DNA from: a virus
Length of the DNA: 51,201 nucleotides
Virus record (IMG/VR): IMGVR_UViG_3300025138_000060
Location: 1 to 51,201 of that record
Direction: 5' to 3' (one strand)
A program made the translations under genes and the position numbers. Shown one piece after another: positions 23,357 to 25,788 of this stretch; the stretch's first letter is position 1; each line of letters opens with the position of its first letter. The notes below the pieces were generated by a model. It searched no databases. It had not been told where the DNA came from and was given only the letters and a program-made list of their open reading frames with translations.

Positions 23357-23517
23357 AAAGCAAGAACAATTCCCGACACGGCAAATCAAAGTCATTTGGC
23401 TCGATTGGCAAGAAAGCCCCACGGCACATCAATCACGACTTAAATGTCTTTGATGCTAGCAAACCTAAAAAGGTGCGGGTCAACAAGCGGCCTAAAGCTT
23501 TGCGGGGTATGCGCTGA
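23353..23517 (+). CDS. Small basic protein before integrase (54 aa)
   Basis: ATG 23353 opens a 54-residue, strongly basic protein, MKSKNNSRHGKSKSFGSIGK, ending KKVRVNKRPKALRGMR. It overlaps the integrase start (TGATG). Charge and small size suit a DNA-binding or recombination-directionality protein, although no winged-helix pattern is visible. Confidence 0.68.
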   Translation: MKSKNNSRHGKSKSFGSIGKKAPRHINHDLNVFDASKPKKVRVNKRPKALRGMR

Positions 23518-24650
23518 TGGGTAAGGCTCCATACATCCGCCCTCGAAAGCGAGGCAACACAACTGTCTATGGCTTTCGCCCCACAGATGAACTACTTCGA
23601 GCGTTTCCCGATCTTACACGGGAGACATTCACTTCGTCATCGGAAGCCAATACTTATGGCAACACTATTAAACGTAAGTTCGAGAAATGGAAGGCAGGGG
23701 AACATCACGATATTTACGTGAATAAGGATTCTGTCGAGGCTTTAGTGCAATATTATTTAAATTCTATGAGATTTAAAAACATTAAGACCAACAATACCAA
23801 GCGTTCTTATCTTGAACATCTACGTCACGTAGCACCTATTCACATAACTAACACATCCTTTGATCGTATGCTTGTGTCAAATGTTGACTATGACTACGTG
23901 AATACACTGTGGCTACACATAAAGGATAAGGTGTCTACACACAAAGCGAACCACACTTTCAAGGTTTTAAAGCTGGTATGGAATGAAGCGTTTCGCGCAG
24001 GGAAAGTTAAAAACAATCCTTTTTCATCAGTAAAATTGCCTAAGCTGCCAGATCGTCAGGTGATGTGGACAGATGACCAGATCAAAGGAATGGTGGCCTA
24101 TTGTGATGAACATGACCAACACGCAATGGGTACGATGATCACGATGTGTTATGAGTTCTGCCAACGGCCTATCGATGTACGCAAAATGAAATGGTCTAAC
24201 GTAGATGGTCGCACTGGTGTGTCTAACTTCCGACAACAGAAGACCGGAAAGCAAATGGCTATCAAGGTAACTAATGCTGTACAAAACCGATTACACCTAC
24301 ATCAACGCCGTAACACAGATGATTTTATCTTTGCTACAAACTACGCAAATAAGCCGTTTACTGCTGATAGGCTAAACAAAGTCTTCCGGTCATTGGCAGA
24401 GGGTTATGGGTTGCCTGAAGTGCAGTTAGTGGATCAGTTTAATAAAGATGGCAGTCAGAAGTATTCAACCATCTGGCTGGCAGATTTACGTAGAACTGGG
24501 ATAACTCACGCATCTCAATGTGGGTGTAGTGATCGAGAGCTAATGAGTCTGTCGGGCCATCGTAATCCACAAATGCTGGTTGTTTACGCAGTCGAAGGTG
24601 AAGTCGAGAGTACCAACGCTAATAAGAAGCGGGGGCTGCTAGATGCTTAA
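23517..24650 (+). CDS. int: Tyrosine integrase
   Basis: A 377-residue site-specific recombinase. The N-terminal 60 residues form an arm-binding-type domain, residues about 70-170 the SAM-like core-binding domain, and the rest the catalytic domain. Catalytic residues are visible: R217 (CQRPID), K242 (QQKTGK), R325 (LADLRRT), H348 (LSGHRN) and Y357 (VVYAVE). The first His of the usual HxxR box is Ala here (A322). It is third in an operon with two small basic proteins. A tRNA-Asn fragment 580 bases downstream is the likely attP. It should integrate the phage into a host tRNA-Asn gene. Confidence 0.92.
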   Translation: MGKAPYIRPRKRGNTTVYGFRPTDELLRAFPDLTRETFTSSSEANTYGNTIKRKFEKWKAGEHHDIYVNKDSVEALVQYYLNSMRFKNIKTNNTKRSYLEHLRHVAPIHITNTSFDRMLVSNVDYDYVNTLWLHIKDKVSTHKANHTFKVLKLVWNEAFRAGKVKNNPFSSVKLPKLPDRQVMWTDDQIKGMVAYCDEHDQHAMGTMITMCYEFCQRPIDVRKMKWSNVDGRTGVSNFRQQKTGKQMAIKVTNAVQNRLHLHQRRNTDDFIFATNYANKPFTADRLNKVFRSLAEGYGLPEVQLVDQFNKDGSQKYSTIWLADLRRTGITHASQCGCSDRELMSLSGHRNPQMLVVYAVEGEVESTNANKKRGLLDA

Positions 24651-24843
24651 CTTAGATCTGGTTGGCTGCATACACTGTAATGCAGTCAGGACTGTTGTAA
24701 CCGACTCTAGACCAACGGTGAAGGCGGGTATACGTTACACACGTAGAAAGCGTGAGTGCGTGAAATGTGCTGCAAAGTATTGGACTAAAGAAGTCTTAGA
24801 TCATCAGTGCCGCGAATATATAACGAGTGAGGAAAAAATGTGA
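24643..24843 (+). CDS. NrdR-like zinc-ribbon protein (66 aa)
   Basis: A 66-residue protein with CIHC (C9, C12) and ECVKC (C39, C42). Between them lies VVTDSRP and then RRKREC, followed by KYWTKEVL. NrdR, the repressor of ribonucleotide reductase genes, has the same CxxC-DSR-RRRREC-xxC-FTT-E order, but the ATP-cone that follows in NrdR is missing. It overlaps the integrase end by eight bases. It could be a mini-NrdR acting on the phage or host reductase genes, or an Ogr-like activator. Confidence 0.7.
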   Translation: MLNLDLVGCIHCNAVRTVVTDSRPTVKAGIRYTRRKRECVKCAAKYWTKEVLDHQCREYITSEEKM

Positions 24844-25055
24844 TGAGTAAAACTAAATCAAAAAACTCAGTCTATGAAGAAGAGATGAACTGTTACGTTA
24901 AGATCAAGGGCTTTACCATTTATATTGAAGTTAGCGAAGCAACCCACAATGAACCTTCAGTAACTTTCTGGACTGAAGCTTACCCTGTAGATAGTACCAC
25001 AAAACTGAAGATTGATAAGAAATATTCAGAGCATTGGCCGGGTAAAAGAACTTAG
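24843..25055 (+). CDS. Unknown protein, end of integrase operon (70 aa)
   Basis: Begins at ATG 24843, on the previous stop (TGATGA), giving MSKTKSKNSVYEEEMNCYVK and beta-like IKGFTIYIEVSEATHNEPSV. A GTG three bases earlier is an equal alternative. It is the last gene before the terminator at 25068. No family recognised. Confidence 0.65.
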   Translation: MSKTKSKNSVYEEEMNCYVKIKGFTIYIEVSEATHNEPSVTFWTEAYPVDSTTKLKIDKKYSEHWPGKRT

Positions 25056-25067
25056 TGCTTAACAAAG

Positions 25068-25111
25068 TGGCGGCTTTCTAGATTAGTTATTTCTGGAGCC
25101 GCCATTTTTAT
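25068..25111 (+). terminator. Terminator of integrase operon
   Basis: Perfect 8-bp stem TGGCGGCT/AGCCGCCA with a 21-base loop, then TTTTTATTTTT. Confidence 0.8.
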
Positions 25112-25144
25112 TTTTAACAGAATCAAAAAACTTTTTTAAAAAAA

Positions 25145-25189
25145 TGGCAGATTTGGCAGACTGCCAATTTACTTTCTGCCCTGCCAAAT
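25145..25189. repeat. TGGCAG/CTGCCA cluster next to attP
   Basis: Two direct TGGCAG words followed by two CTGCCA words, giving nested inverted repeats (TTGGCAG-A-CTGCCAA is perfect). Location 40-85 bases from the att core suits integrase or excisionase arm sites. Confidence 0.55.
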
Positions 25190-25229
25190 TACCCTCAAAA
25201 TTATATATTATTGTTATTAATCAATAAGT

Positions 25230-25275
25230 TGGCTCCGGCGGTTGGGATCGAACCAACGACCAATTGATTAACAGT
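25230..25275 (-). other. attP: attP core: 3' part of a tRNA-Asn(GTT) gene
   Basis: On the minus strand these 46 bases read as the 3' part of tRNA-Asn: anticodon loop CTGTTAA, T-arm GTTGG-TTCGATC-CCAAC, acceptor strand CGCCGGA and GCCA. The preceding bases do not form a D-arm or a 5' acceptor strand, so this is not a working tRNA. Such fragments mark attP sites of phages that integrate into tRNA genes and restore them. No gene lies between 25116 and 25455. Confidence 0.85.
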
Positions 25276-25316
25276 TGTCCTTTGTTTTCAATGACTTACG
25301 TAACTTTATACTCAAT

Positions 25317-25326
25317 ACCTGTTAAC
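25317..25326 (+). repeat. ACCTGTTAAC word near attP
   Basis: Identical to 21057-21066 and 23119-23128. Here it lies 42 bases from the att core. It resembles the anticodon-loop core sequence ACTGTTAATC. Confidence 0.5.
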
Positions 25327-25355
25327 ACTAGGTGTTGTTGAAAGTAATTAGCAAA

Positions 25356-25367
25356 TGTATTAATTAA
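25356..25367 (+). promoter_or_regulatory. TGTATTAATTAA element, site 4
   Basis: Exact copy of site 1 but on the plus strand, followed after four bases by TTGACA, as at the head operon. Confidence 0.6.
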
Positions 25368-25371
25368 GTGG

Positions 25372-25397
25372 TTGACAAGATCTAGATCCCCTATAAG
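25372..25397 (+). promoter_or_regulatory. Probable promoter of replication operon
   Basis: TTGACA and TATAAG, but only 14 bases apart, shorter than a normal spacer. The leader that follows has a CTCT-TTGG-AGAG hairpin before the ribosome site. Placement upstream of the replication genes supports it. Confidence 0.4.
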
Positions 25398-25455
25398 CTG
25401 ACGCTGTCTCTTTGGAGAGGCAGAACCAACCAAAGACTATAACAACAGGTGACCA

Positions 25456-25788
25456 ATGACAAATTCAATCAATTTAAAAATAACATTAGAGAAGACTGAT
25501 GTAAAAGTTTACACAGTCGAGTACACACTCGAAAGAAGCGATCTTATTGAGTGGGTAGATAAAAATCGTGGATCATATCAGAAGGTCGAAGTAGACCCTA
25601 CACTAGATCCTAATGATGGTACTGAGGAAGTATCTTGTACTGAAGATCAATACTATGATTTACACATAGACAATTATATCGATGATCAAGATCCAGATCT
25701 TTTGTTTACTGATAATTGCCACGATCACGATAAATGTAAATTTGTAAGTGAAGAGTGTTCAATTCTACAAACTTATGCAGCAGACTAA
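25456..25788 (+). CDS. Unknown acidic early protein (110 aa)
   Basis: A 110-residue acidic protein, MTNSINLKITLEKTDVKVYT, with beta-like N-terminal half and a C-terminus rich in Asp, Cys and His (NCHDHDKCKF then VSEECSILQ), a possible metal site. It leads the replication operon and is coupled to the primase (TAATG). Confidence 0.68.
   Translation: MTNSINLKITLEKTDVKVYTVEYTLERSDLIEWVDKNRGSYQKVEVDPTLDPNDGTEEVSCTEDQYYDLHIDNYIDDQDPDLLFTDNCHDHDKCKFVSEECSILQTYAAD

Follow-up and report, generated by a model that had tools for sequence, protein, structure and literature searches.

A 46-nucleotide fragment of a tRNA-Asn(GTT) gene, positions 25230-25275 on the minus strand of the viral DNA analysed here (the window: 51,201 nucleotides of IMG/VR record IMGVR_UViG_3300025138_000060), is very probably the attP core, where the lambda-type tyrosine integrase encoded at 23517-24650 would recombine phage DNA with the matching 3' portion of the tRNA-Asn(GTT) gene in the host. 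Insertion into a tRNA gene with its concomitant repair is a known strategy; the attachment site is previously undescribed for these phages. The likely integration site points to marine Rhodobacterales as the host range for one branch of a phage group that is among the most abundant in the sea and, since the cultivated Roseobacter phage CRP-738 has an identical site, makes lysogeny testable with an existing isolate and host.

On the minus strand, the core reads ACTGTTAATCAATTGGTCGTTGGTTCGATCCCAACCGCCGGAGCCA and, according to sequence reading, ARAGORN and the host matches described below, represents positions 31-76 of tRNA-Asn(GTT) without the 5' half: the anticodon loop, a perfect T-arm, the acceptor strand and CCA. 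ARAGORN found no tRNA in the entire window, a pattern scan for T-arm, acceptor and CCA returned 25230-25275 as the sole place, and a search of 24600-25700 against Rfam at a loose threshold gave only chance-level matches, none of them to tRNA. Joined to the host 5' half, the phage fragment is recognised by ARAGORN as a complete tRNA-Asn(gtt), whose function in the cell is predicted. The core lies 579 bases from the integrase stop codon (24650). A preliminary description of this DNA had reported a 46-base tRNA-Asn 3' fragment with the GTT loop, T-arm and CCA and no 5' half, about 580 bases downstream of the integrase, and all of these details are correct; the full tRNA fold that it named as counter-evidence is absent according to ARAGORN. 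Its proposal that the fragment is the likely attP now gains support from the host matches, conservation with the integrase, CRP-738 and the precedent of phage CRP-3.

In the GTDB genome collection, 26 stretches match the 43-mer running from the GTT anticodon to CCA exactly, where chance would provide about 1e-14 (4^-43 x 5e11 positions). Every matching stretch is titled as alphaproteobacterial and belongs to marine alphaproteobacteria/Rhodobacterales, the taxa comprising Rhodobacteraceae, Boseongicola, Planktomarina, Silicimonas, Pontibaca and open-ocean single-cell genomes. Once the three bases before GTT are added, the block common to phage and host is 46 nucleotides long, and a few hosts extend it by 1-3 bases on the 3' side. 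Intact tRNA-Asn(GTT) genes account for 24 of the 26 matches, the remaining two being a stretch that begins at a contig end (L002) and a displaced 3' fragment (L014). The host gene begins with TCCGGCG wherever its 5' end is present (24/24 intact genes), exactly as had been predicted from the acceptor strand CGCCGGA. The search for bacterial tRNA-Asn genes with an identical 3' part, which the preliminary description had proposed, returned these 24 intact genes from the GTDB collection, and the lack of any such host gene, which it had named as grounds for rejection, did not occur. We infer that the host of the window phage belongs to a genus of marine Rhodobacterales.

Some of these host stretches have features of their own. 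One contig of Pontibaca salina (NZ_JAEIJD010000001.1; L014, L025) holds both an intact tRNA-Asn gene and a displaced copy of its 3' part, the latter marking some other element in the tRNA-Asn gene. In Boseongicola metagenome-assembled genomes (L002, L010, L017), contigs begin or end at the tRNA-Asn 3' repeat, and in IRC3_bin_8, also Boseongicola, a 55-base end is common to two contigs, which suggests a repeated att site that broke the assembly.

The window belongs to a marine podophage of the HMO-2011 type, close to CRP-738. Its 726-residue DNA polymerase, for which the best matches are HMO-2011-type phages, contains two CXXCXGXG motifs (CPDCNGIG at 321 and CKTCEGVG at 358), and such a pair in a partial DnaJ domain of the polymerase is a mark of this group (PMC9038755, PMC6918029). 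The gene order on the plus strand, in which the integrase gene is followed by primase, helicase and polymerase, also fits the upstream placement of int in HMO-2011-type phages. CRP-738 (MZ892992), an isolate whose host is Rhodobacteraceae strain FZCC0089, is 74% identical to the window phage in DNA polymerase, 84% in TerL and 66% in integrase, and carries an identical 48 bp tRNA-Asn fragment at 2931-2978, downstream of its integrase, with 1.27 kb between int and core as against 0.58 kb in the window. The fragment is without annotation in the CRP-738 record, and mention of an attachment site was not found in the main text of the CRP-738 paper.

Experimental precedent comes from CRP-3, another HMO-2011-type phage, whose integration into a tRNA-Met gene, at its 3' end, has been verified (PMC6918029). 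In CRP-3, CRP-212 and CRP-235 (L029, L250, L251), int is followed downstream by the 3' fragment of tRNA-Met (CCTGAAGGTCG...TCCCGCAACCA) in a layout like that of the window, and the gene used by CRP-3 is probably also the integration target of CRP-212 and CRP-235; these phages differ from the window in their target, tRNA-Met (CAT), and in integrases that are only about 27-31% identical. HTVC019P-type pelagiphages and other marine phages likewise carry a fragment identical to the 3' end of a host tRNA gene, which has been used to infer hosts (PMC3861242). The strategy is that of the window, whereas the phage groups are unrelated and other tRNAs, such as tRNA-Leu, are used. The comparison with pelagiphages in the preliminary description was apt as regards mechanism but not kinship, the closest relatives being HMO-2011-type roseophages.

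Conservation ties the fragment to the integrase. In a first scan of IMG/VR contigs with a related integrase, 35 of 36 carried a tRNA-Asn 3' fragment downstream of int, and further scans brought the number of distinct contexts to 41, all in the same orientation. Variants of the fragment retain T-stem pairing (GTTGG/CCAAC or GTAGG/CCTAC), and the acceptor variant CGTCGGA occurs in the tRNA-Asn of 17 of 397 Rhodobacteraceae genomes; the phage fragments follow host tRNA variants. In one locus lacking the fragment (L235), the sequence beyond the integrase is too short for a judgement. Three relatives (L207, L217, L221) keep an intact integrase and lack the attP core; L207 retains the left array of repeats described below, which is also missing from L217 and L221. 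The core was apparently lost by deletion, with right ends near the early promoter, and these phages are possible lytic derivatives.

The integrase (377 aa, plus strand) matches PF00589 at 2.7e-13 and the PHROG integrase family at 2e-36. Pfam identifies the SAM-like and catalytic domains, and the AF2 model (pLDDT 79, pTM 0.59) adds an N-terminal domain of about 60 residues with a predicted beta-beta-(helix)-beta-alpha fold, as in the arm-binding domain of lambda Int, completing the three-domain lambda-type architecture. The best Foldseek matches are full-length lambda Int structures (1z1b, 1z1g, 5j0n; E about 1e-11); this likeness emerged from structure comparison, a sequence search of the PDB with the integrase profile having given no matches. 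R217, K242, R325, H348 and Y357 are invariant, and the position aligned by eye with lambda H308 is A, N or S, not His. Two small plus-strand ORFs of 66 and 71 residues occupy 24643-25055, between integrase and attP. The former (24643-24843), directly behind the integrase gene, encodes a zinc ribbon resembling the N-terminus of NrdR; the latter has no match, and neither an excisionase nor a repressor was recognised among the ORFs scanned.

From left to right, the attP region consists of an array of repeats, an IHF-consensus site, the core, an IHF-like site and a CCTGTTAACACTA element. The array, at 25144-25189, comprises about five half-sites (TGGCA, TGGCAG, CTGCCA, TCTGCC, TGCCA), which are putative arm-type sites of the integrase. 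Four TGGCA/TGCCA words within 50 bp (25145-25186) form the densest cluster in the window, against a maximum of three in 200 shuffles, so that the repeats noticed earlier beside the fragment are a real cluster, and a similar array, about equally far from the core, is present in the contexts of the relatives. The consensus recognised by IHF in Escherichia coli is WATCAANNNNTTR. A perfect instance, AATCAATAAGTTG, spans the left edge of the core (25219-25231, plus strand), and this position, or an alternative at -23 on the opposite strand, is used in most relatives. To the right of the core, TTTCAATGACTTA (25286-25298, plus strand) has one mismatch and is perfect in many relatives at an equal offset (+56/57). 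Across the 41 contexts, 26 perfect WATCAANNNNTTR sites compare with 1.5 expected from base shuffles, nearly all of them at offsets -11/-23 and +56/57; the contexts are related by descent, so this excess overstates certainty and the count is not a probability, and the consensus is that of E. coli. We infer from these positions that IHF would be used on both sides of the core.

Further right, the conserved element CCTGTTAACACTA (25318-25330, plus strand), recognised by its conservation in relatives, may be a second arm element or an operator. The region ends with a promoter-like TTGACA...TATAAG, seen by eye at 25372-25397 (plus strand) with a spacing of only 14, ahead of the replication genes. 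Its TTGAC is conserved in relatives and sits just past the point where the natural deletions of attP in L207, L217 and L221 stop on the right. The three-domain integrase fold, arm-type repeats and IHF-consensus sites around the core are all reminiscent of lambda, from which the window differs in having the end of a tRNA gene as its core, a single dense array of five half-sites on one side and no recognised Xis.

The layout of the left array is constant, while its letters differ by lineage. Most relatives, like CRP-738 and the window, have TGGCA; L030, L042, L058 and L241 have TCGCA, and L048-L057 have TTGTCA/TGCAAT. A single lineage (L058/L059), present in two metagenomes, captures a natural exchange. 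Across about 3 kb, L059 matches L049 at 98-100% identity almost throughout; the exceptions are two stretches, the arm array and integrase codons of about 11-65 (and, more weakly, on to about codon 130). Both exchanged stretches of L058/L059 resemble L031, and the approximately 2.2 kb between them, including a thyX-like gene, is 98-100% identical; the CCTGTTAACACTA element and the right flank are also unchanged. The joint exchange of array and N-terminal segment, with the intervening DNA unaffected, is most simply explained if the repeats are arm sites to be read by the N-terminal domain of the integrase, which is very probable. The earlier impression that the repeats look like arm sites is thus best retained, for putative sites, on the strength of this joint exchange and the layout.

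Covariation points the same way. In a partial Mantel test, arm letters correlate with the N-domain given the rest of the integrase (r=0.39, p=2e-4), a result whose certainty is overstated because related sequences are not independent, and with the rest of the integrase given the N-domain (r=0.58), as shared descent would give. Residue 35 (window numbering), at the start of N-domain strand 3 in the AF2 model, is Arg with TGGCA, Asn or Pro with TCGCA, and Phe with TGTCA. We consider it probable that the N-domain and arm array form an exchangeable specificity pair, in which the letters covary with the beta3 segment of the integrase and lineages swap both through two short exchanges more than 2 kb apart, with the core, the catalytic domain and the tRNA target held constant. 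This natural swap offers ready orthologous pairs for studying how an arm-binding domain recognises DNA.

Integration can be envisaged as follows. The N-terminal domain of the integrase would bind the array at 25144-25189, IHF would assist by bending the DNA on both sides of the core, and recombination would occur between the core and the corresponding 3' stretch of tRNA-Asn(GTT) in the host. At attL, the phage copy of the 3' part would follow the host 5' half and so restore the tRNA gene, and the host's own 3' fragment would be displaced to attR. Strand exchange would take place just 3' of the anticodon loop, most likely around positions 39-48.

Two components of this scheme have competitors. 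The left repeats could instead be repressor operators for the early promoter, since they are located in the interval from int to the replication operon and are arranged, like operators, as inverted repeats. This is very improbable: the array changes together with integrase codons of about 11-65 while all intervening genes stay 98-100% identical, pointing to the N-terminal domain, and it keeps a near-constant distance from the core, on the side opposite the promoter. As to the crossover, mycobacteriophages L5 (class I, anticodon loop) and Ms6 (class II, T-loop) both integrate at tRNA genes (PMC1762012), and the exchange in the window appears to fall between the two classes, 3' of the anticodon loop. 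A class I exchange as in L5 would be compatible with the window and about half of its relatives, where the anticodon loop is within the identity block, but is unlikely, given that 17 of the 41 contexts have mismatches inside positions 32-38, the class I overlap as gauged from identity blocks, and identity begins only at 39 in four; moreover, CRP-3 integrates even though the anticodon of its tRNA-Met fragment differs from CAT. Across contexts the 5' limit of identity with tRNA-Asn ranges from position 26 to 39 and 39-76 is nearly always kept, an outlier with its limit at 46 owing this to a single variable-loop mismatch. The varying limit and the CRP-3 anticodon make exchange in the anticodon loop unlikely and suggest an overlap at about 39-48. 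A class II crossover in the T-loop is disfavoured as well, because the 5' T-stem strand, which a T-loop exchange does not require, is matched in every context; this too would favour 39-48.

Whether the site is in use is a separate matter. No lysogen was found with the integrase protein among 18 host genomes and 397 and 298 genomes of the family (overlapping sets, about 700 in all), and the integrases found there, where any, are unrelated (23-34% identity); the prophages with attL and attR at tRNA-Asn that the preliminary description had suggested seeking were thus not encountered in about 700 Rhodobacteraceae genomes. None of the relatives' contigs (41 contexts) has a host tRNA 5' half beside the core. 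In IMG/VR, at least 120 contigs join a tRNA-Asn 5' half to the core; none among the matches listed has a related integrase (best tblastn match 22%, E 2e-4), and none of these is therefore a provirus of the window kind. Rarity of lysogens may explain this outcome, as may a true host outside the sampled genomes. These results, together with the lack of a recognised repressor, the three relatives (L207, L217, L221) that keep int after deletion of the core (two of them having lost the array too), and the rarity of prophages in slow-growing marine bacteria (PMC6918029), could mean that a former attP persists intact in a phage that is now effectively virulent. We regard this as a possibility on the unlikely side, for the catalytic residues of the integrase are kept, constraint on the entire attP is evident in most relatives and CRP-3, from the same phage group, integrates. 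Far less credible still is the idea that the fragment is what remains of a tRNA-Asn gene, phage-borne or captured from a host, that has decayed and plays no part in integration. Phages do carry tRNA genes, and several unrelated ones hold full tRNA-Asn genes, but this fragment ends sharply at CCA and keeps a perfect T-stem and host-specific variants; in 41 contexts it is found close to int, accompanied at fixed offsets by arm and IHF sites, and the 5' half appears in no relative. Integration into the host tRNA-Asn gene is the predicted behaviour of the window phage.

A further observation at this locus concerns one marine Rhodobacterales genus, many members of which have a tRNA-Asn that matches the phage core exactly. 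Twenty-two genomes were searched, including MED-G56, AG-430-P14, AG-359-E17 and AG-918-C19 (L276-L283, L314-L343), and tRNA-fragment matches numbered 36 in 16 of them, intact tRNA-Asn genes included, as against 0 for a reversed control pattern. Behind tRNA-Asn lie serial small cassettes of about 1.6-8 kb, mostly with 1-3 ORFs, whose cargo includes flagellins, cyclase-TPR proteins, a trypsin/MORN protein and an ABC-transporter-like set; no integrase was seen in the stretches read. Each cassette is delimited by a tRNA-Asn fragment accompanied by arm-like repeats and an IHF-like site of its own. Many start, after CCA, with an IHF-like AATCAATAACTTA and two direct repeats whose letters vary from cassette to cassette (GGTGACA, GCTGACA, AATGCCA, AACGACA), and end in TATGACAC repeats and about 32 nucleotides of the tRNA-Asn 3' end. 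An integrase acting in trans may move them, which would make them non-autonomous elements of a kind comparable to tycheposons. In several displaced tRNA-Asn fragments (L277, L279, L281, L283, L318, L324, L337), the 5' T-stem strand is GTAGG and the 3' strand CCAAC, a combination to be expected if these elements, unlike the phages, crossed over in the T-loop.
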